Under the pieces are notes generated by a model, which searched no databases, was not told the DNA's origin, and was given only the letters and a program-made list of their open reading frames with translations. From Halopolyspora algeriensis (GTDB lineage: Bacteria > Actinomycetota > Actinomycetes > Mycobacteriales > Pseudonocardiaceae): a stretch of 64,000 nucleotides of DNA. This document shows positions 192 to 52,210 of the stretch, piece by piece. The first letter of the stretch is position 1; each line of letters opens with the position of its first letter. The stretch lies in NCBI RefSeq assembly GCF_003337235.1, contig NZ_QPJC01000002.1, forward strand, positions 558,001 through 622,000, given 5' to 3'. Both the position numbers and the translations under genes were made by a program.

Positions 192-494
192 TCAGGCCGA
201 CATGCTCAATTCCGCGACATTGCCGCTCTCGAGCAATTTACGCCGTTCGTCCTCGCCAAGCCCGCCCCAGACACCATAGGGCTCTCCAACGCTCAATGCG
301 TGATTCAGGCACGCCTGCTGCACCGGGCACCGTGCGCACACCTGCTTGGCCTGCGACTCGCGAGCGTGGCGAGCCCCACCGCGCTCGTTTTCCGGATGGA
401 AGAAGATCTCGCTGCCCAGCTTCCGGCAGGCAGCATCCCGCTGCCAGTCGTAATTGTCCACATGCGGAACCGGAAGACGAGTCGTCGCTGTCAC
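192..494 (-). CDS. WhiB-family iron-sulfur transcriptional regulator
   Basis: This small actinobacterial Wbl protein (100 aa from the chosen start) has four conserved cysteines for a redox-sensitive [4Fe-4S] cluster: one in DAAC, then the C-x2-C-x5-C pattern of VCARCPVQQAC. The GVWGG turn and a basic stretch (DERRKLL) follow, as is typical of DNA- or sigma-interacting Wbl proteins. The GTG at 494 is preferred because AGGAGA lies just upstream (498-503); an ATG at 527 would add 11 residues without a good ribosome binding site. The gene ends before the 22-bp terminator. The region upstream has a perfect 12-nt palindrome at 523-534. The Wbl subclass and targets cannot be assigned from sequence alone. 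Confidence 0.93.
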   Translation of the reverse strand: MTATTRLPVPHVDNYDWQRDAACRKLGSEIFFHPENERGGARHARESQAKQVCARCPVQQACLNHALSVGEPYGVWGGLGEDERRKLLESGNVAELSMSA

Positions 495-810: not shown

Positions 811-2238
811 CTATGGCAGCAGCGGACCCATTCCGAGCGGCAGGACCACTCCTCCTACGACGCCCAGGGCCAGGGAGGCGGCTCCGGCGGTGTAGGCGGC
901 CAGCGCTGACCAGCGCCCGGCTGGGGCAAGCACGTCCGTGTCCGTCTCCTGTTCCGGTGCGGGTCGCAGGAAGGCGGGGGCGATCCAGCGCAGGTAGTAG
1001 AACAGGCTGGCGACGGTGTTGACGACCGCGACCACGGCCAGCCAGGTGGCGCCGCCGTCGATGGCGGCGCTGAAGATCTCGAGCTTGCCGAGGAACACCG
1101 CTGTGGGCGGTGTGCCGACGAGTCCGAGCAGGCACACGACGAGCACCGCGGCCAGGCCGGGGTGGCGGCGGGCGAGACCGCGGTAATCGGCCAGGCGGGA
1201 GGCGCCGGGCAGTTCGGCCACGACGGCGAAGGCGCCGAGGTTGGTCACGGCGTAGGCGGCCAGATAGAACAGCAGGCTCGGCAGCGCGATCTCGCTGCGG
1301 GTGGCCACCACGGCGGCGATGAGCAGGTAGCCGACCTGGCTGATCGTGGAGTAGGCCAGCAGCCGGCGGACGGTGTCCTGGAAGAACGCCGCGAGATTGC
1401 CCAGGGTCATCGACGCAGCGGCCAGGATGGCCGGCAGCAGCGGCCAGTTCACGGCCACACCGGGCAGCGCCTCGGCCACCAGCCGGTAGACCGCGATGAG
1501 CCCGCCGATTTTGGGCACGGTGGTGACGAACGCGGCCACGGGGATGCTCGCGCCTTCGGTGACATCGGGGACCCAGAAGTGGGCGGGTACCGCGCCGATT
1601 TTGAACAGCAGTCCGGCGAGCACGACCACCAGTCCGACGGCGACCGCTGCACGTGGGGCGGCGGGCAGGTTCTGGGCCAGCGTGGCGTAACCGGTGGAGC
1701 GACCGACTCCGTAGAGGATGGTCACACCGGCGAGCATGGTGACGCCGAGCAGAGCACCCATGAGGTAGTACTTCAACGAGGCCTCGGTGCCCGGCGCGTC
1801 CTTGAAGAATCCGGCCAGGGCATACAGCGGGATCGAGGCCAGCAGGTAGCCGGCGACCAGCAGCAGCAGATCCGAGGCACCGGTGAGCACGATCGTGCCG
1901 AGCGCGGCGAGCAGCATCAGCACGTGGAACTCGGTCTCGCGGTGATGGGAGTCGACGGTCTCGATCGACAGACACAGCGTCAGCAGCGTGGCGGCGAGCA
2001 CGATGATCCGGCCGGCATTGGTAGCGGTGTCGACGGCGTAGCTGCCGCCGAAGACCATCCGGGCGGGGGATCCCATCGCGGCTGCGGTGGCGGCCAGGCC
2101 CACCAGGCAGGCCAGCGCGGCGAGCAGACGCACCGGCCACTGGTGGTGCCGTGGCAGCCAGGAGCCCAGCAGCAAACCGAGCACCGCGCCCGCGACGAGT
2201 GCCAGTTCCGGGATCAGGGCGGCGGGGTGCATGTTCAT
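811..2238 (-). CDS. nuoN: NADH-quinone oxidoreductase-like subunit N (antiporter-type membrane subunit)
   Basis: This 475-aa polytopic membrane protein belongs to the Mrp antiporter-like family of complex I (NuoN). The core helix segment VPAHFWVPDVTEG, with the following lysine-containing VPKIGG, is present, as expected of a proton-translocating half channel. It is the last gene of the eight-gene leftward nuo operon. Its ATG (2238) overlaps the nuoM stop by 4 nt (ATGA), so translation is coupled. Length and features are normal for NuoN, so the pump module looks intact although the operon lacks the catalytic arm. Confidence 0.95.
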   Translation of the reverse strand: MNMHPAALIPELALVAGAVLGLLLGSWLPRHHQWPVRLLAALACLVGLAATAAAMGSPARMVFGGSYAVDTATNAGRIIVLAATLLTLCLSIETVDSHHRETEFHVLMLLAALGTIVLTGASDLLLLVAGYLLASIPLYALAGFFKDAPGTEASLKYYLMGALLGVTMLAGVTILYGVGRSTGYATLAQNLPAAPRAAVAVGLVVVLAGLLFKIGAVPAHFWVPDVTEGASIPVAAFVTTVPKIGGLIAVYRLVAEALPGVAVNWPLLPAILAAASMTLGNLAAFFQDTVRRLLAYSTISQVGYLLIAAVVATRSEIALPSLLFYLAAYAVTNLGAFAVVAELPGASRLADYRGLARRHPGLAAVLVVCLLGLVGTPPTAVFLGKLEIFSAAIDGGATWLAVVAVVNTVASLFYYLRWIAPAFLRPAPEQETDTDVLAPAGRWSALAAYTAGAASLALGVVGGVVLPLGMGPLLP

Positions 2239-3740
2239 CGACCGACCATCCCGATCAGGGCCGTGGCAGCCGGTTCGATCACGTCGAGCAGGAATCGCGG
2301 GAGCACGCCGATGGCGATCGCCATTGCCAGCAGCGGCAGGATCGAGGCCGCCTCGCTCGGCCGCAGGTCGGTGAAATCGCGAGCGGCGCCGGGTGCGTCG
2401 GGGATCCGCAGTGACCCGAGGAAGACCCGGTGCAGCGCCCGTAGCAGCAGCCCGGCGGTGATCAGGATGCCCAGCAGGGCCAGCGCGGTGGCCACGGTGG
2501 CCGAGGCCAGACTGCCGGTGAAGATCTGGAACTCTGCGATGAACCCGGAGAATCCGGGCAGCCCGAGGGAGGCGAACGCGACGAGTCCGGTCACGCCGGC
2601 GAAAACCGGTGCCGGTCCGGCCAGCCCGGAGTAGGCACTCATGTCATAGCTGTCCCTGCGGTCGTAGAGGATCCCGGCGAGCAGGAACAGCGCACCGGTG
2701 AGCAGCCCGTGGCTGACCATCTGAGTCACCGCGCCGGTCACGGCCAGCGAGCGGGCCTGCTCGTCGCTGCCCGCGAGGATGCCCGCCGCACCGACCGCCA
2801 GAATGATGTAGCCCATGTGGTTGACCGAGGTGTAGGCGATCATGCGTTTGAAGTCCTCCTGGGCCAGCGCCACCAACGCGCCGTAGAGGACCGAGAGCAC
2901 GCCGACGACGACCACGACCGACGCGTACTGCCGCCAGGTCTCCGGCAGCAGTGGCATCGCGATGCGCACGAAGCCGTAGGTGCCCATTTTCAGCAGCACT
3001 CCGGCCAGGATCGCCGAGCCGGCGGCGGGGGCGTCGGTGTGCGCGGGCGGCAGCCAGGTGTGAAACGGCACGGTCGGTGTCTTGATCGCCAGTCCGATTC
3101 CGATGGCCAGCAGCACCAGCGCTCCGTAGGCGCCGCTGCCTGCCAGCGGGGCGGCCCGGGCCAGGGCGACGATGTCGAAGGTGTGCGGCTGTGCGGCCAG
3201 GGACAGCCCGATGAATCCCAGCAGCAACGCCAACGACCCGATGAAGGTGTAGAGGAAGAATGTCAGCGCCGAGCGTTTCGCGCTGCCGTGGCCCCAGCGG
3301 GCGATGACGAAGTACATGCCCACGATGGACAGGTCGAAGTAGACGAAGAACAGGATCAGGTCCAGCGCGGTGAACAATCCCTGGCTCACCGTCTGCAGAC
3401 CCAGGAACAGCAGCACGAAGCTTTTCACCCGGTGGGTTTGCCGCAGCGAGTAGATCGCGCATGCCAGGAACAGCCCCGCCGTCACCGCCACCAGCGGCAG
3501 CGACAGCCCGTCGATACCGACGTGATAGCTCACGCCGGCGGTGGGGATCCAGGGCAACTGCTGTTCATAGGCCATTCCGCCGCTGGGGTCGTAGCCGATC
3601 CAGGCGGCCACGACCAGAGCGAGATCGGCCGCCGCGACCACCACCCAACTCACCGCGAACACTCGCCTGCCGACGGAGGCGGGTACGGCGGCCAGCACCG
3701 CGGCGGCCACCAGTGGCAGGAACACGATCAACGACAGCAC
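2235..3740 (-). CDS. nuoM: NADH-quinone oxidoreductase-like subunit M
   Basis: This 501-aa protein has about 14 membrane segments and belongs to the antiporter-like complex I subunits. The diagnostic VPFHTWLPPAHTDAP segment (residues about 210-225) and the following LLKMGTYG lysine motif are well conserved. This argues for a functional proton channel with the usual lysine/glutamate relay. It starts with GTG at 3740, 3 nt after the nuoL stop, and its stop overlaps nuoN. It is co-transcribed with the other membrane-arm genes; no regulatory element is visible within the operon. Confidence 0.96.
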   Translation of the reverse strand: MLSLIVFLPLVAAAVLAAVPASVGRRVFAVSWVVVAAADLALVVAAWIGYDPSGGMAYEQQLPWIPTAGVSYHVGIDGLSLPLVAVTAGLFLACAIYSLRQTHRVKSFVLLFLGLQTVSQGLFTALDLILFFVYFDLSIVGMYFVIARWGHGSAKRSALTFFLYTFIGSLALLLGFIGLSLAAQPHTFDIVALARAAPLAGSGAYGALVLLAIGIGLAIKTPTVPFHTWLPPAHTDAPAAGSAILAGVLLKMGTYGFVRIAMPLLPETWRQYASVVVVVGVLSVLYGALVALAQEDFKRMIAYTSVNHMGYIILAVGAAGILAGSDEQARSLAVTGAVTQMVSHGLLTGALFLLAGILYDRRDSYDMSAYSGLAGPAPVFAGVTGLVAFASLGLPGFSGFIAEFQIFTGSLASATVATALALLGILITAGLLLRALHRVFLGSLRIPDAPGAARDFTDLRPSEAASILPLLAMAIAIGVLPRFLLDVIEPAATALIGMVGR

Positions 3741-3743
3741 GGG

Positions 3744-5609
3744 CTACCTCACGAACACGAGGAACAGGGCCAGCACGGCCAAGGCCACCGCAGCCTGGGC
3801 GTAGTACTGGTGCAGCTGGCCGGTCTGCGGACGGCGCGCGAGCGAACCGAGTCCCCTGGCGGTCTGGGCGGCAAGGCGCACCAATCCGTCGACCGGGCTC
3901 TCGGCGCCACGGTTGATCAACCGTGCCAACCACAGTCCGGCGGCGGGCACGGCCAGCACGATCCGATGCAGCGCCCGATCGTCGAAGGCCGCCAGCCCGC
4001 GAGCCAGCACCATTACCGGCCGCACGGCGAGGACGTCGGCGGCATGTTCGAACCGCAGCCACTGCCCCGCCCAGCGGCGAGCAGCCGCCGGAACCGGAAT
4101 CGGCCGGTCGCCCCACCACCAGGTGACGGATGCGGCGGCGAGCGCCAGCAGCGCGGACAGCGTGAGCTCCCACACCGCGGGTGACGAGGCATTCCCCGGG
4201 GCGTTCGACCAGACCTGCATCACCGGGGGGAGGGCCAGGATGCCGAGCACGGCAGCGGAGCCGGCCAGAAACACCAGTGCCGGCGGAGCCGAGACCACGA
4301 CCCGCCGAGTACCGGCGTGCTCGGTGTCCCATCCGGCTTCGGCATCGGCTGGCTCCGGCTGCCAGAGCACCCACGCCGCTTTGGTGCTGTAGACCGCAGC
4401 CATCACCGCGGCAGCCAGGCCCACCGCATACAGCCAGGGACTTCGCTGCAGCGCCGCGGCGAGCACCGCGTCCTTGGTCACCCACAACGACAGCGGTGGT
4501 AGTCCGGCCAGCGCCGCGGCGGCGACCGTGAACGTCACCCCGACCAGCCGGTACCGCCGTGCGGCACCGCGCAGCGCGGGCAGCGCCTTGGTGCCCAGCG
4601 CGGTCAACCACGCCCCCGCGGCCAGGAACAGCGCCGACTTGGTGGCCGCGTGCGCCACGAGGTGCATCGTGCCCGCGGCCACGCCACCCGCACCGGCGGC
4701 CAGCACGATGAATCCGATTTGGGCGGAGGTCGAGGCGGCCAGCAGCTGCTTGAGGTCGGTCTGGGCGACGGCGACGAGACCGAGCACCAGCGCGGTCGCC
4801 GCACCCGTCCAGGCGACCACCGGCTCTCCCCAGCCGGAGGCGGCCAGCAGCGGCTGCAGCCGCAGCAGCAGATACGCCCCGGCGGCGACCATGGTCGCCG
4901 AGTGCAGCAGCGCCGACACCGAGCTGGGGCCCTCCATGGCGCGCGAGAGCCAGAAGTGCAACGGCAGCTGGGCCGACTTGCCCAGTGCGGCGGCCACGAT
5001 TCCCGCGGTGAGCACCGTCAACCATGGCCGGCTCACATCGGGCAGTGCGGGCAGCGCGAGTGTGCTCACCCCGCCGGCGAGTGCGGCCCCGGCCGCCAGG
5101 TACAGACCGAGGTCGGCGGCACGGGTGGTCACGAAGGCGACGTTGGCGGCTCGGACACGATGCGGCTGGTGCCACCAGTATCCGATCAGCGCCCAGCTCG
5201 TCGCCCCCATGACCTCCCAGCCCATGAGCAGCACCGCCAGACCGGTAGCGGTGACGGTGACCAGCATCGCCCCGGCAAACAGCAGCATCAGACCCGTGAA
5301 TCGCGCCCGCGCCCGGCCGGGACCGAGCTCCACGGTGGCGAAGACCAGCACCGCCAGGGTGATCGTCGCGACCGTGACCACGAGGATCGCCGAGAGCCCG
5401 TCGACGGCCAACCCCGCGTCGATCCCGGCGAACAGCGGCACCGACACAGCCGGGCGCAATACGGCGGCGGTGGCAGCCAACACCAGCGTCACCGACGCCG
5501 CCACGATCCCCACCGCGGGAGCGAGCCGGTCGCCGCGGCGACCGGTGCAGGCCAGCACCGCCCCGGTGCCCAGCGGCACCGCGATCAGCAGCCACACCAG
5601 CGCCCCCAT
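3744..5609 (-). CDS. nuoL: NADH-quinone oxidoreductase-like subunit L
   Basis: This 621-aa antiporter-like subunit would sit at the distal end of the membrane arm. Canonical NuoL signatures are easy to see: LLMGWEVMGATSWALIGYWW carrying the TM5 glutamate, then QLPLHFWLSRAMEGPSSVSA and the following HSATMVAAG. The C-terminal part contains the extra helices of the long lateral-helix region. Length matches normal NuoL. The ATG at 5609 follows the nuoK stop by 3 nt. The good conservation contrasts with the degenerate NuoB/D-like protein and the altered NuoA and NuoH in the same operon. Confidence 0.96.
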   Translation of the reverse strand: MGALVWLLIAVPLGTGAVLACTGRRGDRLAPAVGIVAASVTLVLAATAAVLRPAVSVPLFAGIDAGLAVDGLSAILVVTVATITLAVLVFATVELGPGRARARFTGLMLLFAGAMLVTVTATGLAVLLMGWEVMGATSWALIGYWWHQPHRVRAANVAFVTTRAADLGLYLAAGAALAGGVSTLALPALPDVSRPWLTVLTAGIVAAALGKSAQLPLHFWLSRAMEGPSSVSALLHSATMVAAGAYLLLRLQPLLAASGWGEPVVAWTGAATALVLGLVAVAQTDLKQLLAASTSAQIGFIVLAAGAGGVAAGTMHLVAHAATKSALFLAAGAWLTALGTKALPALRGAARRYRLVGVTFTVAAAALAGLPPLSLWVTKDAVLAAALQRSPWLYAVGLAAAVMAAVYSTKAAWVLWQPEPADAEAGWDTEHAGTRRVVVSAPPALVFLAGSAAVLGILALPPVMQVWSNAPGNASSPAVWELTLSALLALAAASVTWWWGDRPIPVPAAARRWAGQWLRFEHAADVLAVRPVMVLARGLAAFDDRALHRIVLAVPAAGLWLARLINRGAESPVDGLVRLAAQTARGLGSLARRPQTGQLHQYYAQAAVALAVLALFLVFVR

Positions 5610-5612
5610 CGG

Positions 5613-5918
5613 CTACTCCTTGAGATCGGCGGCCATGTCGGTCATGTCCACATCGCGAGCCCGGAAGATCGCCGTGACCACGGCGAACCCCATCGCCATC
5701 TCCACCGCCATCGCCGTGATCACCACGACGATCAGCACCTGACCGTCGGCGGTGGCCGGGGCGAGGAAGTGCCAGAAGGCGGCCGCAGCGACGATGACGC
5801 CGTTGAGCATCAGTTCCAGGCCCATCATCAGCATCACGACCGACTGCTGAGTCAAGGCGCCGAACAGGCCGATGGCCAGCAATCCGGCACCGAGAACGAG
5901 GAACAGTTCGAGACTCAT
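5613..5918 (-). CDS. nuoK: NADH-quinone oxidoreductase-like subunit K
   Basis: This 101-aa protein with three membrane helices is the MrpC/NuoK-type subunit. The helix-2 segment QSVVMLMMGLELMLNGV retains the key glutamate of NuoK (normally LMCIELMLN). The start is set at ATG 5918 because it overlaps the nuoJ stop by 4 nt (ATGA) and gives the usual about 100-aa length; an upstream start would add 15 arginine-rich residues. It is translated together with nuoJ. Confidence 0.94.
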   Translation of the reverse strand: MSLELFLVLGAGLLAIGLFGALTQQSVVMLMMGLELMLNGVIVAAAAFWHFLAPATADGQVLIVVVITAMAVEMAMGFAVVTAIFRARDVDMTDMAADLKE

Positions 5919-6478
5919 CGGCCCACCCCACCGGGAATCGGATCGTCGGGGCGGTCCGCGCACAAGTCGTCGCCGAACCGCTCGTAGCGGCCCCGGTGGG
6001 TGGACAGCACCACCGTGGCCACGATGGTGGCGAACAGCGCGAGGCCGAGCGTCATCATCGTCAGCATCTGTGGGCCCATGAGTGCCTCACCCAGCGCCCG
6101 GGTCGGCTCGGCCGGTGGCCGTCCGGCCCGCTGCGGCCAGTCGACGAGGAAGATCCCGGTGGTCAGCGCGACGAAGAGGCCTCCGGCGATCGCCGCCGCG
6201 CCGCGGGTGTTGTGCAACATCGCCATCGGCATCAGCCCGGCCGGGTTCATCATGTACATGACCATGAACACGGCCATGATCACCATCTCCATGGTCATCA
6301 TGAGCACGATGACCACGCCGAGGTAGCTCAGGCCCAGCAGCAGCACCTCGCCGGCGACGAACAGGAACGAGGCCAGCAACGCGAACGTCACCCGCGCCAT
6401 CGAGTCCAACCGGAACACCAGCGCGCCCGAGACCAGGGCGAATACCCCGAGGATCCAGAACAGCACCGTGATCACCAT
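5915..6478 (-). CDS. nuoJ: NADH-quinone oxidoreductase-like subunit J
   Basis: This 187-aa protein has five predicted membrane helices and corresponds to NuoJ/ND6 of complex I. The third helix region LGLSYLGVVIVLMMTMEMVI matches the conserved NuoJ core (normally A-x-x-Q-x-x-V-Y-x-G-A-x-x-V-L), but the usual tyrosine/glycine pattern is modified and the segment is unusually methionine-rich. A good ribosome binding site (GGGGAGGAAGG) precedes ATG 6478. It is followed by nuoK with a 4-nt overlap. NuoJ forms the flexible link between the quinone site and the pumps, so the altered core fits the modified quinone-site parts of this operon. Confidence 0.92.
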   Translation of the reverse strand: MVITVLFWILGVFALVSGALVFRLDSMARVTFALLASFLFVAGEVLLLGLSYLGVVIVLMMTMEMVIMAVFMVMYMMNPAGLMPMAMLHNTRGAAAIAGGLFVALTTGIFLVDWPQRAGRPPAEPTRALGEALMGPQMLTMMTLGLALFATIVATVVLSTHRGRYERFGDDLCADRPDDPIPGGVGR

Positions 6479-6497
6479 CGAGCCTTCCTCCCCGTCA

Positions 6498-7421
6498 TCA
6501 GAGCACCACCAGCGCCACGATCAGGGCCTGCAGGATGGTCAACGGGATCAGCACCACCCAGGCGAACTCGGCGAACCGCTCCATCCGCACCGTGGGGAAC
6601 CGACGGGCCAGCCACACGATCGCTGCCAACACGGCCACCGTCTTGACCAGCGTCCACAACCACGGCGGCAACAGCGGGCCGTTCCCCCCACCGAGGAACA
6701 GTGGTACTGCCATCGCGGCCGCGACCACGAGCAGCAGCCGGCGCCCGCCGAGGAACGCCAGTCGGTCCACTCCGGACAACTCCGCGGCAGCACCCCCGGC
6801 GAGATCGCCCCCGACCGGAGCGTCGAACGGACCCCAGAACGCCATGGCCGCAGCGCTGAGCAGGTACACGACGAAGGCCACCGGCATCCAGGTGACGAAC
6901 CACAGCCCGGACTGGGCCTCGACGATGCCGCCCACGCGCAAGGTGCCCGCCGCCGTCGCGGCGGTGATCAGCGCGAACATGTGCGGCAGTTCGTAGGCCA
7001 GCCCCTGGGCGACGAACCGGTAACCACCGGTGAGGGAGAACGCGGAGTTCGGCCCCCACCCGGCCATCCACACCGCCGCCCAGGTCAGGATCTCCATCGC
7101 GTTGAACCACACGACACCGACGGCGAGATCGGCCACAGCAACCCCACCCAGCGGCAGGACCACCGCTGCCAGCAACGCCGCGATCGGAACGGTCAGCACG
7201 CCGGTCCGCCACAAAACACCGTCGGCGGCCACGGTCGTACGACGCTGGGCCACGAGCAACCGTGCCACCTCGCGCAGTGGAACCATGGCCGTCTGCGATG
7301 GTGAACCCGTCGCACCGGTGGCGCGTGCCGCGAGCACCGCATCGAACGCGATCGTGCCTGCGGTGATCACCGCCAGTACGGCGGGCAGCACGAGCACCGA
7401 CCACAGGGGAACCTCAGTCAC
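6498..7421 (-). CDS. nuoH: NADH-quinone oxidoreductase-like subunit H (degenerate quinone-site loop)
   Basis: This 307-aa polytopic protein is homologous to NuoH/ND1, the membrane subunit that forms the floor of the quinone cavity. Recognisable parts are the segments around GYRFVAQGLAYELPHM and the loop WGPFDAPVGGD. In canonical NuoH this loop reads RAPFDLPEAE; here the glutamates that contact quinone and NuoB/D are lost. The protein is also somewhat short (canonical about 325-430 aa). The GTG at 7421 overlaps the end of the NuoB/D-like gene by 8 nt. The residue changes suggest altered or absent quinone chemistry, which is an inference from the sequence. Confidence 0.9.
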   Translation of the reverse strand: MTEVPLWSVLVLPAVLAVITAGTIAFDAVLAARATGATGSPSQTAMVPLREVARLLVAQRRTTVAADGVLWRTGVLTVPIAALLAAVVLPLGGVAVADLAVGVVWFNAMEILTWAAVWMAGWGPNSAFSLTGGYRFVAQGLAYELPHMFALITAATAAGTLRVGGIVEAQSGLWFVTWMPVAFVVYLLSAAAMAFWGPFDAPVGGDLAGGAAAELSGVDRLAFLGGRRLLLVVAAAMAVPLFLGGGNGPLLPPWLWTLVKTVAVLAAIVWLARRFPTVRMERFAEFAWVVLIPLTILQALIVALVVL

Positions 7422-8784
7422 CGGCCACCCCCGTGACTTGCCGGCTGTCCAGAGTGGTGATGTTCGGATGGAGACTGGCCACGATCAGCCGCACGGCGGC
7501 CAGTTCGGCCCCTTCCAGCAGTTCGGGAAGCACGGCCAATGCGGGCATCGATGCCGGATCCTCTTCGGAAAGCCCCTGCGCCTGCCCCTCTCGCGCGGGA
7601 AGCACAGCGGGGTCGTCGACCTCCGGGAGCGTCCGCTCGATCTCGGCCAGCCAGGCCTGCCAGCGCGCCGTGACATCACCACCGGATCGGCTCGCGTTCA
7701 GCGCCGGTCCCCGGATCCCGGCGGCCTCGGCGCGGTCGAAGGGCAGCACACCGAGCCCGTCGGTGAGCCACCGCAGCGTCCGCGCCCGGCGCAGTTGCCG
7801 GACCAACCGCCGCAGCCGGGTCGTCACCTGGTCAGCGCGTGCTCCGGCGAGTACCTCGTCGCGCAGCCTTCCGGCACCGACCGCGGGGTCGAGCCATCCG
7901 GCCACCCGTAGAAGCCTGGCGAGGCCATCCAGGTATGCGGCGACACAACGCCGAGCCCTCTCGCCACGACTCACCTCCTGCCCGGCCGCAGCACGACGCC
8001 AGGGTTCGTTCCAGAAGTCCCCGTCAGCGCCGTCCTCGTGGAGAACGTCCACCCGGGCCTGCTGGACGACATCGCCCTGCAGGGTCGTGTGCACCACCAG
8101 CCCGACAGGCCAGTCCGGCAGCAGCGGGCCTAGGGGAACGTGCAGCTGATCAAGCTGGAGACCGTCGCGGTCAGGGCCACGATCGGCCATTCCCAGCCCT
8201 CCGGGCATCTCCATGCCATCACCGTGGTCATGCCCGCCGCCATGGTCGTGACCGCCATCGTGACCGTCCTCGGCACCGTGGTCATCGCCACCGCTCTGCT
8301 CGCTCTCGGCACCGTGGCCGTTCCCGTGGCCGCCACCGTCTGTGTTCTCGTCGTTCTCGTCGTCGTGGTTTCCGCCGCACCGGTCGGCATCACTGCCGTG
8401 CTCGTCGTCGTGGTGCTCCTCCTCGGACTCGCCGCTGTTTTGCTCCTCGCCGTCGAGAACCTCGCTCGCCTCTCCTCCGGTCGCCAGCCTGCGACGACCC
8501 TCGTCGAGCAATTGCGGAACATCCGAAGGACTGTCCACATGAACGAAAACCCGGGGCTTGGGCATCTGCCGCCACACACGGCCCACCAGGGGCATCAGCC
8601 ACGCACCGATGTGTCCGGTCAGGACCAGAATGTCGGCCTCGGCGGGACTCGCCGCAGCCGGCCAGCACCGATGACGCAGCTCGGCTTCGACGGCGAACCG
8701 CTCCGCGGTGCCGCCGGGGACCTCCAGCAGCAGGATGTGCGGCCGTCCCGCGGCGAACCGCAGCAGAGCACCGGTCACGCCCAT
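7414..8784 (-). CDS. degenerate NuoB/NuoD-like fusion with His/Asp-rich linker
   Basis: This 456-aa protein is the only soluble product of the nuo operon. Residues about 40-85 resemble the NuoB fold: ADILVLTGHIG then MPLVGRVWRQMPKPRVFV corresponds to the NuoB segment ADVLVVSGT..MAP..R..YDQMPEP. The four cysteines that bind cluster N2 are all absent. Residues about 110-182 form a highly acidic, histidine-rich linker (many HD, GGH and HDHG units) that could bind divalent metal. Residues about 195-238 (LDQLHVPLGPLLP) resemble the N-terminal beta region of NuoD. The remainder is helical and arginine-rich with no catalytic NuoD residues recognised. ATG 8784 overlaps the nuoA stop. It probably caps the membrane arm in place of the peripheral arm; its function is unknown. 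Confidence 0.75.
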   Translation of the reverse strand: MGVTGALLRFAAGRPHILLLEVPGGTAERFAVEAELRHRCWPAAASPAEADILVLTGHIGAWLMPLVGRVWRQMPKPRVFVHVDSPSDVPQLLDEGRRRLATGGEASEVLDGEEQNSGESEEEHHDDEHGSDADRCGGNHDDENDENTDGGGHGNGHGAESEQSGGDDHGAEDGHDGGHDHGGGHDHGDGMEMPGGLGMADRGPDRDGLQLDQLHVPLGPLLPDWPVGLVVHTTLQGDVVQQARVDVLHEDGADGDFWNEPWRRAAAGQEVSRGERARRCVAAYLDGLARLLRVAGWLDPAVGAGRLRDEVLAGARADQVTTRLRRLVRQLRRARTLRWLTDGLGVLPFDRAEAAGIRGPALNASRSGGDVTARWQAWLAEIERTLPEVDDPAVLPAREGQAQGLSEEDPASMPALAVLPELLEGAELAAVRLIVASLHPNITTLDSRQVTGVAGD

Positions 8785-9125
8785 CGCAGCGCTCCCTCCC
8801 GCCACGCGTAGGTGACACCGGCGAGCAGGATTCCGAGAAAGACGAACATCTCGATCACCGCGCCTGCCCCGGCCGAGGAGACGACGAGTGTCCACGGGTA
8901 CATGAACAGCATTTCCATCTCGAAGGCCAGATAGATCATCGTCAGCGTGTACCAGCGCACATGGAACCGGGAAACAGCGTGCTCGACCGGCTCGTGACCA
9001 CTCAGGAACGGGCCGAGGTCGGTAGCCGGCGGAGCCACCGTCACCAGCCGCGCGAGCCCGTAGGTTCCCGCGGCGATCACCACGGCCAGACCGAACAGCG
9101 CCGCCACCGCGGAGAAACCGCTCAC
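8775..9125 (-). CDS. nuoA: NADH-quinone oxidoreductase-like subunit A
   Basis: This 116-aa protein has three membrane helices and is NuoA/ND3-like. The C-terminal core RWYTLTMIYLAFEMEMLFMY then PW matches the conserved FDxExxFLYPW motif of NuoA. The normal YECG motif in the loop near the quinone channel is replaced by sequence without cysteine (GHEPVEHAVSRFHV). GTG 9125 is chosen as start: it gives the family length and has GGGGAG 8 nt upstream, while earlier starts add 34 non-membrane residues. It is the first gene of the nuo operon, 185 bp after the upstream monooxygenase gene, where the promoter should lie. Confidence 0.88.
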   Translation of the reverse strand: MSGFSAVAALFGLAVVIAAGTYGLARLVTVAPPATDLGPFLSGHEPVEHAVSRFHVRWYTLTMIYLAFEMEMLFMYPWTLVVSSAGAGAVIEMFVFLGILLAGVTYAWREGALRWA

Positions 9126-9310: not shown

Positions 9311-11071
9311 TCAGGAGTGCAGTACCGTGTCCAGGGCCCGATGCAGTTGCTGCTGTGCCTGTTCGGGAGTGTCCGGACCCGAGGTGTGGCGCCAGGCGAT
9401 GTAGCCGTCGGGGCGCACCAGCAGGCAGCCGGACTCGTCGATCTCGCAGACGCGGCGCCAGTCGCCGTAGGCGTCGCGTGCCTGCGGGGTGCCGATCCGC
9501 ACCAGCCGCAGCGGCAGGCCGAGCTGCTCTCGGCAGTACTCCACCGCCGAGGACCACGCGGTGCCGGACAGGCCCGTCACGAGGCTGAACTGTCCGCGCC
9601 CGACCAGATCCAGTGTGGAGACTCGCCGGCCGTGCTCGTCGACCAGCCACACGTGCGGCAATTTGGCGCCGGGCCGTGTCGTGGACTGGTGATGCAGCTC
9701 GGGGTCCCGCTGCCAGGCTTCCTCGCTGTCCTCGGCGAGCACGGCCGAGGAGCGGTAGCGTTGGTTGAGCTCGACCCCGTGGGCGTTGAACTCGTAGTTC
9801 TTCAACTCGATGGCCTCGGTCAGGGCGAGGCGGCGCTTCTCGCCGTCGGCGTTTTCCTCCCGGCAGGCGGCCAGCCCTCGGGTGATGCCCTCGTCGTCGC
9901 TGCCTCCGGCGATGCCCAGCGCCTCGAAGATCGGCCCGAACTGGTCCCGGCTGAGGTTGGCGCGCTCCACGATCTGCCGCCCCACCGGCGCCCGCTCACT
10001 GCTGTAGGTCTCCAGCAGCTCCGGGCCCGCTTCGCCGCGAATGACCATCGCCAGCTTCCAGGCCAGGTTGAACGAGTCCTGCACGGAGGTGTTCGAGCCC
10101 AGCCCGTTCGACGGGGGATGGCGGTGCACGGCGTCACCGGCACAGAACACCCGACCCGAGTGGTACTCGGTGGCGTAGTTGTGGTTGACCGTCCACAGTG
10201 ACCGCGAGGTGATGGTCACCGGCACGTCCGCGTCACCGATGAGGTCGTGCACGATCTCGCGCGCCTGGGACTCGGTCAGCTCGTCGGGCGGGTCGTCGAT
10301 GTCGTAACCCCAGGTCAGCAGCCACTTGTGCCAGGGACGCACCATGCGCACCAACCCCATGCCGATACCGCCCATGTGCGCGCCCGGCCGCATCACCCAG
10401 TACAGGACACTCGGCCGATGTGCGACGTAGTGGGACAGGTCGGCATCGAAGACGATGTTCATGCTGCCTGCCTTGCCCTCCTGCCCGGCGATCGGCAGCC
10501 CGATCTGCTCGGCGACCCGGCTGCGGGCACCGTCGGCGCCGATGAGGTAGCGGGCCCGCACGGTGAACTCGTCGCCGCGCAGTCGGTCCCGCAGCCGCGC
10601 GGTGACCCCGTCGGCATCCTGCTCCAGGTCGAGGAACTCGGTATCCATGCGTACCGTGGCCCCGCGCGAGGCGGCTCGGGTGACCAGGATCGGTTCGAGG
10701 TAGATCTGCGGCAGGTCCAGCATCGTGCACGGGCTGGCCGCGTTGTACTCGGTGGCCGAGTCCTCCCCGGTGCCCCAGCTGCGGATCCGGCCGATCTCCT
10801 CGCCGGCCAGGGAGGTGCACAGCACGGTGTCGCCCATCAGCTCCGGCGGGGTGCCCTGCGCCAGCGCCTCGTCCTCCACGCCGAGATCGCGCAGCACCTC
10901 CATGGTGCGCTGGTTGGTGATGTGCGCACGGGGCGTGTTGGCCACCCAGCCGTACTTGTTGACCAGCAGCGTGCGCACACCGTAGGTCGCCAGCAGCAGT
11001 GCGGCCGCCCCACCGGCCGGGCCCGTGCCCACAACGAGCACATCGGTGTCGTGGTTCTGCTCGGTGCTCAC
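9311..11071 (-). CDS. FAD-dependent aromatic monooxygenase (TfdB/PheA family)
   Basis: This 586-aa class A flavoprotein hydroxylase probably hydroxylates a resorcinol- or phenol-type substrate to hydroxyquinol. Visible signatures are the N-terminal Rossmann motif VVGTGPAGGAAALLLATYG, the YLIGADGARSRVAEQIGL DG motif near residue 180, and GDAVHRHPPSNGLGSNTSVQ near residue 300, which is typical of phenol and 2,4-dichlorophenol hydroxylases. A thioredoxin-like C-terminal domain fits the length. GTG 11071 overlaps the stop of the upstream fused dioxygenase/reductase gene (GTGA), so the two are co-translated. This pairing points to supply of 1,2,4-trihydroxybenzene; the true substrate is not determined. 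Confidence 0.9.
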   Translation of the reverse strand: MSTEQNHDTDVLVVGTGPAGGAAALLLATYGVRTLLVNKYGWVANTPRAHITNQRTMEVLRDLGVEDEALAQGTPPELMGDTVLCTSLAGEEIGRIRSWGTGEDSATEYNAASPCTMLDLPQIYLEPILVTRAASRGATVRMDTEFLDLEQDADGVTARLRDRLRGDEFTVRARYLIGADGARSRVAEQIGLPIAGQEGKAGSMNIVFDADLSHYVAHRPSVLYWVMRPGAHMGGIGMGLVRMVRPWHKWLLTWGYDIDDPPDELTESQAREIVHDLIGDADVPVTITSRSLWTVNHNYATEYHSGRVFCAGDAVHRHPPSNGLGSNTSVQDSFNLAWKLAMVIRGEAGPELLETYSSERAPVGRQIVERANLSRDQFGPIFEALGIAGGSDDEGITRGLAACREENADGEKRRLALTEAIELKNYEFNAHGVELNQRYRSSAVLAEDSEEAWQRDPELHHQSTTRPGAKLPHVWLVDEHGRRVSTLDLVGRGQFSLVTGLSGTAWSSAVEYCREQLGLPLRLVRIGTPQARDAYGDWRRVCEIDESGCLLVRPDGYIAWRHTSGPDTPEQAQQQLHRALDTVLHS

Positions 11072-13017
11072 GTGTCTTCTCCGTGGTCCTGCTCAATCTC
11101 GGCGGCGATGTGGAAGGTGAACTCCAGCAGACGCCAGCTTCCGTCCATGTCGCGCCCGTCCGGTGTGGCGCCGTGCTGCCGTGGCATGTCGACGATGAGC
11201 TCGTCCTTGACGCCGAACACCGCATCGGAATCCAGGTAGGCACCGCCGGCCACGAACAGTTGCGTGATCAGACGCGGCCGCCCCGGCGCCATGATCATGA
11301 AATGCACGTGCGGAGCCCGGTAGGGGTGCCGCCCGACCGCGTCGAGCATGCTGCCGACGGGACCGTCGTCGGGGATCGGGTACTCCGAGGGGGCGATGGA
11401 TCGGAATGTGAACCGGCCCTTCTCGTCGGTGCGGAACCGGGCACGCAGCACCGGGCCGTCCAGGTCCGGCAGTTGCACGTCGTAGTAGCCGTCCTCGTTG
11501 GACTGCCAGACGTCGACGACCGCGTCCCGGACGGGAACCCCCTCGGTGTCGACGATCGTGATGTCGCCCCACAACGGCTCACCGGGCAACCCCTGGGAGA
11601 TGTCGGTTCCGTGTTCGGCCGTCGGGGGTCCTTCGACGTAGAACGGGCCGAGCACCGCCGAGGGGGTCGTGCCGGGGGTGCGCGAATTCGTCAGCAGGTC
11701 CACCGCGCTGGAGACACCGAGGGTGTCCGACAGCAGCACGAATTCCTGCCGGGTGTCGCTGCACATCCGGCCGGTGCGGGTGAGGAAGTCGACGGCGTAC
11801 TGCCACTCGCCTTCGGTGACGTCGTTGTCGGCCACGAAGCGGTGCAGGTGGCGCACCAGGTCCGTCAACAATTGCCGCACGCGCGGGTCTTCGGCCTGGT
11901 CGAAGCCGGCGACGACCTGCTCGGTCAGCCGGTGCAGCGCCGCCATCGGACGTCCGCCGGAAGCCGGGCGGTTGCCCGCCCAGGCTTCGCGCAGCAGAGC
12001 CGCGACGCCTTCGGTGGTCACTTCCCGAGGGTTGGGGTAGGACTTCGCGGTGGCCGACTCGGCGGCGGTACCCAGGTCCTGCTCGGCCATCCCCAGCTGG
12101 TGCAGCGAGGTGGGCCCACCCAGCGAGGAGATCAGGTCGTGCACCCCGGCGGGCGCGTCGTCGGTGCCCAGGGCCTCGGCGATGCGCCGCATCACCTCGG
12201 GTGCGGCCGGGGCGTTGTAGGCCATGGCATACGGCAGCACGACGGTGTGGGTATCGGCGTGCGGCAGGTCGAAGGAGCCGCCCAGGGTGTGGCACAGCTT
12301 GTGGTGCAGTCCCATGCCGACCAGGCCCAGGCAGGTCCCGGCCAGCCACGCCGCGTGCAGCGCCTCGGCGCGGGCGTCGACATCGGCCGGATCGGCCGCG
12401 ATGGCGGGCAGAGCCCTGCCCATCAGCCTGATGGATTCCAGCGCCCAGCCGTCGACGACCGGGTTGGTCTGCTGCGAGTACAGCGCCTCCACCGCGTGGG
12501 CCATCGCATTGATGCCGCTGGTCACCGACATCGCCACGGGCAAATCGAGGGTGAACTCGACGTCGTAGACCACGGTTTCGGGCAGGATCGCCGCATCCGA
12601 GCGGGTCATCTTGGTGCCCTGCGCCGTCTCACCCAGCACCGGGGTGACCTCGGAGCCCGCGTAGGTCGTGGGCAGGATGATCTGGTCGATACCGGTGCGC
12701 CACGCGAGGGCCTTGGCCAGTCCGGTCGTGGAGCCGCCCCCGACGGCCACCACGCAGTCCACGGAGTGCTCACCGACCAGTTCCATGGCCTGCTCGGTGA
12801 CCTCGACGGGCGTGTGCATGGCCGCTCCGTCGAAGCGGGCCACGGCCAGCGACTCCAGCGCCTCGTGCACCCGGTCGCCAAGCGCTGCCAGTGGGGGGCT
12901 GCCCAGCACCAGAGCCCGCGCGCGTCCGAGCCGCTCCACCTCCTGGCGCACCTGCGCGCTGGTGCCGTACCCGAACACCACCCGGTTCGGGTTCGTGGCG
13001 TGGACGAAACTTCTCAT
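11068..13017 (-). CDS. fused maleylacetate reductase - hydroxyquinol 1,2-dioxygenase
   Basis: This 649-aa bifunctional protein joins two consecutive steps of the hydroxyquinol pathway. Residues 1 to about 355 are an iron-type alcohol dehydrogenase fold acting as maleylacetate reductase (GGGS nucleotide motif at about 93-96, PTTYAGSE, and a His-rich metal site HHKLCHTLGG). Residues about 365-649 are an intradiol dioxygenase. Its non-heme iron ligands are visible as Tyr in DGYYDV (about 511-512), Tyr in RHPYRAPHVHF (about 566), and His 570 and 572. Ring cleavage by the C-terminal half yields maleylacetate, which the N-terminal half reduces to 3-oxoadipate. A purine-rich site (GGGAGAAG) precedes ATG 13017. 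Such fusions occur in actinobacteria, but most bacteria use two genes. Confidence 0.93.
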   Translation of the reverse strand: MRSFVHATNPNRVVFGYGTSAQVRQEVERLGRARALVLGSPPLAALGDRVHEALESLAVARFDGAAMHTPVEVTEQAMELVGEHSVDCVVAVGGGSTTGLAKALAWRTGIDQIILPTTYAGSEVTPVLGETAQGTKMTRSDAAILPETVVYDVEFTLDLPVAMSVTSGINAMAHAVEALYSQQTNPVVDGWALESIRLMGRALPAIAADPADVDARAEALHAAWLAGTCLGLVGMGLHHKLCHTLGGSFDLPHADTHTVVLPYAMAYNAPAAPEVMRRIAEALGTDDAPAGVHDLISSLGGPTSLHQLGMAEQDLGTAAESATAKSYPNPREVTTEGVAALLREAWAGNRPASGGRPMAALHRLTEQVVAGFDQAEDPRVRQLLTDLVRHLHRFVADNDVTEGEWQYAVDFLTRTGRMCSDTRQEFVLLSDTLGVSSAVDLLTNSRTPGTTPSAVLGPFYVEGPPTAEHGTDISQGLPGEPLWGDITIVDTEGVPVRDAVVDVWQSNEDGYYDVQLPDLDGPVLRARFRTDEKGRFTFRSIAPSEYPIPDDGPVGSMLDAVGRHPYRAPHVHFMIMAPGRPRLITQLFVAGGAYLDSDAVFGVKDELIVDMPRQHGATPDGRDMDGSWRLLEFTFHIAAEIEQDHGEDT

Positions 13018-48958: not shown

Positions 48959-51900
48959 TCACACCTCCGTTCCGGTCCGCTCGGTGATTCCGGCGCGCTG
49001 CTGGTACTCGTGCACCAGTCGGGCGCGGTCCGCCCCCACCGGGCGACGCCCGGGACGGATGTCGCAGGACAACGCCTTCACCTCCTGAATGTGGGAGTTG
49101 GGGTCCAGCGAGATCGAGGACAGATCGTTGAACGAGTCCCCGGTGCTGTAGCCGTTGGGACCCCAGTGGTAGGGGATTCCGACGTGGTGCGTGCGGCGGC
49201 CCTGGATGGTCATCGGCGTCATCCGCTCGGTGACCAGCAAGCGGGCCTCGATGGCGCCTCGTGCGGTGACCACGGTGGCCCACCCCAGGTGTTCCAGGTT
49301 CCGCTCGGCCGCCAGTTCCGGCGAGACCTCGCAGAAGAGTTCCGGCTGCAGCTCCGAGAGGTAGGGCAACCAGCGGGACATGCCGCCCGCGGTGTGGTGT
49401 TCGGTGAGCCGGTAGGAGGTCAGCACGTACGGATACACCTCCGTGCCCGGGTCTTCACCGCTGGGCTGGTAGCGGTTGTTGGGGTGCGGCTGGATCTGGC
49501 GGACCGGGTTGCGCTGCTGGGTGTAGAGCAGGTTGCTCACCGGCGAGTCCTGCGGCTCGTAGTGGGTCGGCAGCGGACCGTCGGTCAACCCGGCGGGCAC
49601 GAACAGCCAGGCCTTGCCGTCGGCCTGCATGATGAACGGGTCCAACCCGGACAGTGCCTCCGCGCCCTGCGCGCCGTCGGGTGGGCGGTAGTGCGGCGAC
49701 TTGGACTTGTCGTAGTCGGGGATGTCGTGCCCGCTCCACTGCGCTTTCTCCGCGTCCCACCAGATCAGGGCCTTGCGCTCGCTCCACGGGTTGCCTTCCG
49801 GATCGGCCGAGGCACGGTTGTAGAGGATGCGCCGGTTGGCCGGCCACGCCCAGCCCCACTCGGTGGCGACCCAGTTCTGCTGCACCTGCGGCTTGCGCCG
49901 GGCCGCCTGGTTGACGCCGTCGGTGTAGACGCCGCAGTAGATCCAGCAGCCGCACACCGTCGAGCCGTCGGCGTTGAGCTGCTCGTAGTTGGTCAACGGG
50001 TTCCCGTCGGCACCCCAGCCGTTGATCTCGGCGAGCACCGACTCGGCCTCGGGCTCGTCGATCTCGCCCTTGGTGGGATAGTCCCAGGTCAGATCGAGGA
50101 TCGGAAAGTCCCTCTCGTCGATGCTGCCTGCGAGCTTGTGCCGGATGCGCCGACCGAGGTGGTAGGTGAACCACAGATCGCTGCGCGCGTCGCCTGCGGG
50201 TTCGACGGCCTGGTGGTGCCACTGCAGCAACCGCTGCGTGTTGGTGAAGCTGCCGTCCTTCTCGGTGTGCGCGGCGGCGGGCAGGAAGAACACCTCGGTA
50301 CCGATGTCCTCGGTGTGCAACTCCCCGGTGGCGATCTCCGGGCCGTCCTTCCACCAGGTGGCGCTCTCGGTCAGCGAGAAGTCGCGGACCACCAGCCAGT
50401 CCAGGTTCGCCATTCCCAGCCGCTGCATCTTCGCGTTGGCCGATCCGACGGCGGGGTTCTCCCCCATCAGGAAGTAGCCCTTGCACTCCCCGTCCAGCTG
50501 GGACTGGACCGTCTCGTAGGTGCTGTGGCTGCCGGTCAGCCGGGGCAGGTAGTCGAAGCAGAAGTCGGTTTCCGGAGTCGCTGCCGAACCCCACCAGGCC
50601 TTGAGCAGGCTGACCATGTAGGCCCGCATCTCGGCCCAGTACCCCTTGCGGGTGGCCTCCGCGGTGATGAACGCGTCGAGGTCCTCGTTGGAGTGCGCGT
50701 GCGGCATCGGGATGTAGCCGGGCAGCAGGTTGAACAGCGTCGGGATGTCGGTCGAGCCCTGGATCGAGGCGTGTCCCCGCAGCGCGAGCACCCCACCGCC
50801 CGGGCGGCCGATGTTGCCCAGCAGGCTCTGCAGGATGGCGGCCGACCGGATGTACTGCACGCCCACCGTGTGCTGTGTCCAGCCGACCGAGTAGACGAAC
50901 GCGCTCGTCCGGTCCCGTCCGGAGTTGCTGGTGAGCAGTTCGCACACCCGGAGGAACGTCTCCTGCGGCACGCCGCAGATCTCCTCGATCACCTCCGGCG
51001 TGTAGCGGGCGTAGTGCCGCTTGAGCACCTGGAACACGCAACGCGGGTGCTCGAGTGTCTCGTCGTTGGTGATCTGGGCGGTGACCTCGGCCCCGCCCGA
51101 GCCGTGCGCCTCACCGCGACCCGCCTGGCGCACGCCGGAACTTCCCTGCACCCGGTCGGAGTACTCCTTGTCGCGCTTGCCGGAGGCGGCCTGCACCTCG
51201 GTGCCCTCGTACTGCCAGGTGTGGAAGTCGTAGATCCGCGACTCCGGATCCAGCCCCGAGAAGACACCGTCGAGGTCCTCGGTGTCGGCGTAGTCCTCGG
51301 TGAGCACCGTCGGAGCGTTGGTGTAGGTGACCAGGTACTCCCGGAAGTACTTCTCGTTCTGCAGGACATGGTTGATGATCCCGCCGATGAAGGCGATGTC
51401 GCTGCCCACGCGCAGCGGCACGTGGATATCGGCCAGCGCGCTGGTGCGGGTGAACCGCGGATCGACGTGGATCAGGGTCGCGCCGCGTGCCTTGGCCTCC
51501 ATGACCCACTGGAAGCCGACCGGATGGCACTCGGCCATGTTCGAACCCTCGATGACGATGCAGTCGGAGTTCTGCAGATCCTGCTGGAAGGTCGTGGCCC
51601 CACCGCGCCCGAACGAGGTTCCCAGACTGGGAACCGTGGAGGAGTGTCAAACACGCGCCTGGTTCTCGATCTGGACGGCTCCGAGCGCGGTGAACAGTTT
51701 CTTGATGAGGTAGTTCTCCTCGTTGTCCAATGTGGCCCCGCCGAGGCTGGCGATGCCCATCGTGCGGCGCGTGCGCACCCCGTTCTGCTCCCACTGCCAG
51801 CCCTGTCGCCGGGTGGCGATCACGCGATCGGCGATCATGTCCATCGCCGTGTCGAGATCGAGGGTTTCCCACTCGGTGCTGTTCGGGCGCCGGTGCAGCA

Positions 51901-52210
51901 CCTGGTGCATGCGGGCCGAGCCGGTGGTCAACTGCAGGCTCGCCGCGCCCTTCGGGCACAACCGACCCCGGCTGACCGGCGAGTCCGGGTCGCCCTCCAC
52001 CTGGGTGACCTTGTCGTCGGAGACGTAGACGTTCTGGCCGCAGCCCACCGCGCAGTAGGGGCAGACCGATTTGACGACCTTCTGCGCGGTTTGCGTGCGC
52101 GGGGTGAGGTGCTCGCTGGTCGAGCTCTTCGCCGCAGCGCCGCGCCCGTAGGGGTCTCCGGCGCCGAGCTGCCGGAAGAGCGGCCACCCGAGCCAGTCAC
52201 GCACACCCAT
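48959..52210 (-). CDS. fdhA: formate dehydrogenase alpha subunit, selenoprotein (in-frame TGA = Sec)
   Basis: This 1083-aa molybdopterin enzyme is coded across an in-frame TGA at 51647-51649, which reads as selenocysteine at residue 188. The reading frame is the same on both sides and the context IENQARV-U-HSSTVPSLG equals the E. coli FdnG site QARV-U-HGPTVASLA. The N-terminus has the [4Fe-4S] cysteines C50, C53, C57 and C85 (SVCPYCAVGCGQN, then RLCPKG). A SECIS hairpin starts 11 nt after the TGA. There is no twin-arginine signal at the N-terminus, so the enzyme appears cytoplasmic. It oxidises formate to carbon dioxide. ATG 52210 has GGGAGGC 8 nt upstream. Expression needs selA, selB and selC, which are not in the window. 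Confidence 0.93.
51617..51649 (-). promoter_or_regulatory. bacterial SECIS hairpin with Sec UGA codon
   Basis: On the minus strand, the TGA (51647-51649) is followed after 11 nt by a perfect hairpin: arms GGTTCCCA and TGGGAACC at 51617-51635 with a GTC loop. The E. coli fdhF SECIS has the same 11-nt spacing and a stem opening with GGUU and closing with ACC around a GU-containing loop. This is strong support for SelB-directed selenocysteine insertion. Confidence 0.9.

Follow-up and report, generated by a model that had tools for sequence, protein, structure and literature searches.

An operon of eight genes in Halopolyspora algeriensis occupies positions 811-9125, on the minus strand, of the 64,000-nucleotide stretch analyzed here (contig NZ_QPJC01000002.1, positions 558,001 to 622,000; hereafter, the window). 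It encodes NuoA, a fused NuoB/NuoD-like protein (BD), NuoH, NuoJ, NuoK, NuoL, NuoM and NuoN. Judging from sequence comparisons, we consider it fairly probable that this operon specifies a copper-homeostasis machine, derived from the membrane arm of respiratory complex I and a fused NuoB-NuoD scaffold. The family to which the operon belongs has a constant gene set and has lost the residues for redox chemistry and quinone binding, and methionines of its membrane subunits are invariant across phyla. Many of its loci are found in copper-gene neighborhoods, some are preceded by CsoR operators, and some BD proteins contain heavy-metal-binding HMBD domains.

The preliminary description of this DNA, made from the letters alone, had recognized a complex I membrane-arm operon of eight genes, and the operon is indeed real. 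All frames are intact, adjacent genes overlap or sit within ~20 bases of each other, every membrane subunit matches its own Pfam family well over the cut-off, and the set is conserved in more than 100 loci, which is far beyond chance. Most of the membrane subunits in the window score far under the NCBI equivalog cut-offs for true Nuo subunits; thus, the gene set represents a divergent branch. The catalytic subunits NuoC, E, F, G and I, which by that description would speak against it if encoded beside the operon, are not found near it in the window annotation, and they are absent from all related loci annotated. A full nuoA-N operon was also to be sought elsewhere in the genome, and a complete one is present on another contig (G000:C1, ~200.3-217.1 kb). 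Another genome (G031) carries two complete 14-gene nuo operons (L189, L190).

A contig scan with the single BD protein gave no matches, and a 30-row BD alignment then succeeded. BD homologues were detected in 8 of 41 near relatives of the window genome and in 37 of 395 genomes sampled from the class, 27 of these matches being strong and the rest weak and of the NuoB type. When the 30-row alignment was run across GTDB, 386 related loci emerged, of which we kept the best 80; they include Streptomyces, Actinopolyspora, Nonomuraea, Micromonospora, Actinomadura, Nocardiopsis, Pseudonocardia, Amycolatopsis and others. The eight-gene set is present in hundreds of actinobacterial genomes. Genes were called with a simple GC-based caller. 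The order A-BD-H-J-K-L-M-N holds in nearly all complete loci, while the neighbors outside the operon vary. Related operons in the same gene order occur in other classes of Actinomycetota, and further members were found among plasmid records from Rubrobacter, Halomonas and marine alphaproteobacteria, the proteobacterial relatives being drawn from the plasmid collection only. In the trees of NuoM (support 100/99) and NuoH (support 100/100), the family is monophyletic and separate from both canonical and 11-subunit complex I. Every gene of the operon is subject to purifying selection, with a ratio of nonsynonymous to synonymous substitution rates of ~0.02-0.5 (0.21-0.48 for BD).

The second gene of the operon (7414-8784; coding part without the stop codon 7417-8784; 456 amino acids) encodes NuoB fused to NuoD, without the cluster cysteines or the quinone-site histidines. 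A NuoB-like domain (residues ~1-105) is followed by an acidic linker rich in His, Asp and Gly (~108-196) and a NuoD-like domain (~199-445). No Pfam family matches BD over the cut-off, and the NuoB match is weak (TIGR01957, 1.8e-4); residues 1-105 match NuoB chains in the PDB (best 7e-6, HMMER). The AlphaFold model of BD has a mean predicted local distance difference test score (pLDDT) of 81.4 and a predicted template modeling score of 0.79, and Foldseek aligns it with NuoD/49-kDa chains of complex I from many structures (E 7.6e-7, probability 1.00). Alignment of BD with a single NuoD sequence by hhalign gave no significant match; homology instead rests on the PDB sequence search, the fold search and the better-conserved homologues, most of the plasmid copies exceeding the Pfam cut-off for Complex1_49kDa in their NuoD-like part. 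The four NuoB cysteines that bind cluster N2 are not conserved in the BD of the window and of the plasmid homologues. The quinone-site motif of NuoD, GPxHPxxHG (GPQHPSTHG), reads GPLLPDWPVG in the window and GPFFPGLPAG or similar elsewhere, and both histidines are absent in all BD relatives aligned. Thus, the absence of a peripheral arm claimed in the preliminary description holds for NuoC, E, F, G and I, whereas the NuoB and NuoD scaffolds persist as one protein. The linker of the window BD (residues 108-196, 89 amino acids, positions 8197-8463) contains 12 His, 16 Asp and 14 Glu, with low pLDDT at residues 118-194. In the branch that comprises Rubrobacter and the alphaproteobacteria, one to three HMBD domains (PF19335, down to 3e-41) lie between the two halves of BD.

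The loss of quinone coupling extends to the membrane subunits. In NuoH (6498-7421; without the stop codon 6501-7421; 307 amino acids; Pfam NADHdh, 1.4e-44), nearly all relatives have lost E. coli Glu216 and Glu218 and have Arg in place of Glu241, with Glu228 kept; in NuoJ, Tyr59 is replaced by Met throughout the relatives. The GPFDAPVGGD sequence of NuoH and the missing YECG cysteine of NuoA had been quoted correctly in the preliminary description, and its view of a membrane arm that lacks the NADH module and is no longer coupled to quinone is supported by these losses together with that of the HPxxH histidines of NuoD. The combined loss of the NuoB cysteines, the NuoD histidines and the coupling residues of NuoH and NuoJ excludes that the complex acts as a known type of quinone reductase; from its sequence, the scaffold is predicted to be no longer able to carry electrons or reduce quinone.

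The antiporter-like subunits retain more of the ancestral design. NuoL (3744-5609; without the stop codon 3747-5609; Pfam Proton_antipo_M, 3.6e-50) keeps every proton-path residue tested in the residue table. In NuoM (2235-3740; without the stop codon 2238-3740; TIGR01972, 7e-141, over the cut-off; also Proton_antipo_M), the glutamate of transmembrane helix 5 (TM5; E. coli Glu144) is Asp in all 108 actinomycete relatives, the lysines, histidines and Glu407 being kept. In NuoN (811-2238; without the stop codon 814-2238; TIGR01770, 3.5e-101, over the cut-off; also Proton_antipo_M), TM5 Glu133 is Leu in 106 of 109 actinomycete relatives and Leu or Val across groups, with the lysines kept. The earlier statement that L, M and N have canonical pump motifs is thus fully right for NuoL and fails for the TM5 position of NuoM and NuoN. 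In NuoK (5613-5918; without the stop codon 5616-5918; 101 amino acids; Pfam Oxidored_q2), Glu36 and Glu72 (E. coli numbers) are kept and Arg25 is replaced by Gln.

What has been gained is a methionine/histidine signature in the small subunits. Signature columns were defined by an identity of at least 95% across 125-130 sequences representing all groups, together with near absence from eight canonical sequences. Methionine accounts for 11 of 17 such columns in NuoJ (5915-6478; without the stop codon 5918-6478; 187 amino acids; Pfam Oxidored_q3), 4 of 10 in NuoK and 2 of 6 in NuoA (8775-9125; without the stop codon 8778-9125; 116 amino acids; Pfam Oxidored_q4, 4.5e-25), that is, 17 Met columns, with one His column each in NuoJ and NuoA. 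The 28 columns of NuoL, M and N include one His and no Met, so that the comparison of Met or His columns, 19 of 33 in A/J/K versus 1 of 28 in L/M/N, is highly significant (Fisher p 5e-6). The Met content of NuoJ is ~9.5%, compared to ~3% in canonical NuoJ. The invariant residues of the window NuoJ (M27, M60, M61, E64, M65, M68, M72, M76, M77, M85, M87, H89 and M138) lie mostly on the predicted third helix (residues 51-77; modest confidence) and the loop after it, and those of NuoK (M29, M31, M70 and M74) adjoin the kept Glu36 and Glu72. The window NuoA has H55, E71, M72 and M75 (E. coli positions 65, 81, 82 and 85), and this His/Met signature does not vary among 112 actinomycete copies or among the full-length copies from deep-branching genomes and plasmids. 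Methionine and histidine are common Cu(I) ligands in membrane transporters. The window operon has all the traits by which we define the family, namely the Met/Glu/His signature of NuoJ, the methionines of NuoK and NuoA, and the BD fusion.

The neighborhood of the family is rich in copper genes. Within 6 kb of 47 of the 105 non-redundant loci, we counted 95 genes for CsoR, CopZ, CopA, multicopper oxidase or DUF305 proteins in 900 kb of flanking sequence, versus none in 28 control stretches of 20 kb (560 kb) from the same genomes; copper P-type ATPases were counted by the CPC motif. Unbiased clustering of neighbors, checked with Pfam, ranks CsoR, CopZ, DUF305 and CopA at the top, and the multicopper oxidase and a DUF326 Cys-rich protein are recurrent, too. 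In several deep-branching actinobacterial genomes, CopA-CsoR-CopZ are followed by the eight genes on the same strand. Among annotated plasmids, those of Pseudonocardia, Curtobacterium and Rubrobacter carry the operon next to csoR-copZ-copA type genes, that of Arthrobacter FB24 next to a multicopper oxidase gene, those of Roseivivax and Acuticoccus next to cueR and a P-type ATPase gene, and those of Halomonas and Roseovarius next to copA/copB-type genes; no annotated copper gene was seen near the operon in Gordonia, Thioclava, Paracoccus and Pseudarthrobacter. The operon was also observed on plasmids of Mycobacterium intracellulare and on the Mycobacterium avium plasmid pHP17a (L230), the latter with a copper-type P-type ATPase and an HMA protein ~3 kb upstream.

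Regulatory sites agree with this picture. We searched for the CsoR type-2 operator, TRCCC-N5-GGGYA, within 300 bases upstream of nuoA and found it in 20 of 116 loci, compared to a mean of 0.14 in shuffled sequences and to 0 of 575 upstream regions of nuo genes internal to the operon. The motif agrees with the published Streptomyces CsoR consensus, ATATACCCCTNAGGGGTATAT (PMC3902906). Eight of the 20 operator-bearing loci have no listed copper gene within 6 kb.

We propose the following mechanism. The eight subunits would assemble into one membrane complex; copper, most likely Cu(I), would be bound at the cytoplasmic side by BD through its metal-binding linker; the ion would be handed along the methionine ladder of NuoJ, NuoK and NuoA, at the site of the canonical quinone-coupled proton channel; and proton flow through NuoL, M and N would drive or balance the movement of copper, in a manner similar to the exchange of H+ and Na+ by the Mrp antiporter. 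The region that conducts cations in Mrp here carries invariant Met, Glu and His; a proton-coupled Cu(I) transporter fed by BD is the simplest reading. Export, and hence resistance, is the more likely direction. Assembly, transport and its direction, the metal and the coupling to protons are thus probable features, and the window copy probably has the same role, despite its lack of copper neighbors. The chances are about even that the family constitutes a new class of copper transporter, free of iron-sulfur (Fe-S) clusters and of quinone, in which proton flow through L/M/N would drive Cu(I), fed by BD, along the J/K/A ladder, and which would have spread, partly on plasmids, through actinobacteria and proteobacteria. 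The ion-pump module with an unknown input of the preliminary description survives in its first half, the proton-path residues being present in NuoL and largely in NuoM and NuoN; the input need not stay unknown, since copper is indicated by the genome context and the CsoR operators as well as by the metal-binding domains and the methionine signature, a connection that the preliminary description had not made.

It should be noted that several observations weigh against a copper role. The window operon has no copper gene beside it, and its nuoA promoter contains no CsoR operator, even with up to 2 mismatches allowed; the two CsoR-family genes of this genome are on another contig. More than half of all loci lack a copper gene within 6 kb, although many flanks are short, and because related loci share kinship, the counts overstate independence. 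At least 5 His are found in the BD linker of 74 of 99 actinomycete proteins; a quarter of them have no His-rich linker, and we rejected it as a universal feature of BD. No HMBD domain was found in the window, Halomonas and Roseivivax copies of BD. A significant helical stripe comprising all seven methionines of transmembrane helix 3 was not supported (p 0.15), only a hand-picked subset being significant. Without the TM5 glutamate of NuoN, not all three proton paths may work. Finally, several hosts are halophilic or marine, in line with the published salt hypothesis.

Much of the evidence for a copper transporter would also fit a complex that helps the cell under copper stress without moving copper, be it a pathway for protons or cations that is gated by Cu(I), a membrane sensor or store of copper, or a device that helps restore ion balance once Fe-S enzymes, the normal complex I for example, have been poisoned by copper. 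Copper context, regulation and the Met/His signature are shared by both explanations, the absence of Fe-S clusters would make such a complex copper-proof, and the proton paths are kept only in part. Conversely, a complex without redox input cannot itself generate proton motive force, and the methionines occupy the J/K/A core, the part through which the cation passes in Mrp, which suggests passage beyond sensing; we regard this helper role as unlikely. According to the published view (PMC3314556, PMC4018334, PMC6002675 and PMC6676996), the operon would be a marine adaptation, a Na+(K+)/H+ antiporter resembling Mrp that confers tolerance to salt or pH. This appears rather improbable, even though L, M and N resemble antiporters, several of the hosts are halophiles or live in the sea, and the window genome also has two Mrp clusters, as a halophile might. 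The salt reading, taken up first from the literature, was demoted because the enriched neighbors proved to be copper genes, not salt genes; the CsoR operators, the HMBD domains and the absence of MrpE, F and G from the operon argue in the same direction. Methionine is a poor ligand for Na+ or K+, which makes the invariant methionines hard to reconcile with such an antiporter.

There is very little probability that the operon encodes a redox-driven proton pump whose electrons would enter through an unlinked module, either one with genes at another place or that of the normal complex I. The retention of A, H, J, K, L, M, N and of the B/D-like scaffolds would be compatible with it; however, neither the cluster cysteines of NuoB nor the quinone histidines of NuoD are present in the window BD or in the homologues examined, the coupling residues of NuoH and NuoJ are replaced throughout, and none of the loci contains NuoC, E, F, G or I, so that this explanation is close to refuted. 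Likewise, the loss of catalytic residues and the occurrence of a genome with only a broken BD fragment (G274) could be indicative of a decaying, non-functional copy of complex I, whereas intact frames, purifying selection, strict synteny across phyla and new invariant residues leave practically no room for decay, which the conservation evidence rules out.

The gene set itself has been published. A "partial NDH-1 operon" or "partial nuo-operon" of Salinispora, Streptomyces and Kocuria was described by Penn and Jensen (2012, PMC3314556) and appears in Ian (2014, PMC4018334), Sun (2018, PMC6002675) and Almeida (2019, PMC6676996); in these papers, the operon is interpreted as a proton or sodium pump for salt or marine adaptation and the second gene is left hypothetical. 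Almeida (2019, PMC6676996) noted the hypothetical gene between nuoA and nuoH and also noted the presence of the operon in a strain from copper-rich mine fluids; Streptomyces albus J1074 is reported to lack it (PMC6676996). The set and order, nuoA, hypothetical gene, nuoH-J-K-L-M-N, beside a complete nuo operon, are the same as here, the likeness to Salinispora being by description only. The shortened clusters of unestablished function mentioned in the preliminary description are thus not wholly undescribed, since the gene set was known and a salt role had been proposed. The NuoB-NuoD fusion, the methionine signature and the copper context, all found here, are not reported in the available text of those papers, and we found no report in the open-access literature that links the operon to copper. 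New in the present analysis are the identity of BD, the residue losses, the wider distribution, the copper context, the CsoR operators, the HMBD domains and the methionine signature.

Compared to known systems, the family resembles respiratory complex I in that A, H, J, K, L, M and N are homologous and the B and D scaffolds are present in fused form; it differs in lacking the NADH module, NuoC, NuoI, the N2 cysteines and the quinone-site histidines. The 11-subunit complex I operons of deep-branching actinobacteria (A, B, C, D and H-N without NuoE, F and G; L191, L193, L194) keep B, C, D and I and have no methionine signature. Mrp is likewise a relative of complex I without redox function, composed of antiporter-like subunits and small NuoJ/NuoK-like ones, with H+ moving via the NuoL/M-like subunits and Na+ via a residue ladder in the NuoJ-/NuoK-like and other small subunits (PMC7419157). 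Unlike the present family, Mrp has MrpE, F and G, none of which is found in the window operon, and no NuoA, H or B/D; the family combines three antiporter subunits with A, H and BD and is Met-rich in J, K and A. The two Mrp-type clusters of the window genome (L207, contig C6; L208, contig C18) both lie off the operon's contig, and one is followed by an apparent BCCT-type betaine transporter, which fits a halophilic host. With the actinobacterial CsoR-regulated cop operons (csoR, copZ, copA), many loci of the family share the neighborhood and some the operator type, the window copy having neither; known members of these operons are CsoR, CopZ, CopA and the like, and we found no report of a complex I-like member.

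The genes flanking the window operon are not among the neighbors that recur in relatives. Upstream are an aromatic ring hydroxylase gene (9314-11071) and, before it, a single gene (11071-13017, minus strand) in which a maleylacetate reductase-like domain of the iron-type alcohol dehydrogenase kind is joined to a hydroxyquinol 1,2-dioxygenase-like intradiol dioxygenase, a fusion of the hydroxyquinol pathway. Directly downstream of nuoN is a WhiB-family regulator (195-461, minus strand), which is not a recurring neighbor, either. Elsewhere in the window, a gene for a formate dehydrogenase alpha subunit (48962-52210, minus strand) contains one in-frame TGA in the motif ARVUHSSTV, which reads as selenocysteine 188; conventional gene calling would break the gene in two at this TGA.

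If the copper reading is true, metal handling would join the functions of the complex I/Mrp superfamily, so far interpreted as redox pumps and Na+/K+ antiporters, and a cluster published as a marine salt adaptation would be reassigned to copper. With quinone coupling erased and the ion-moving arm kept and rewired, the family offers a clean test of how J, K, A and H communicate with the antiporter subunits, which has long been debated for complex I. Annotators gain a recognizable signature for the eight-gene family, and the results point to a module linked to copper that has gone unrecognized on the plasmids of bacteria from marine, soil and clinical sources.

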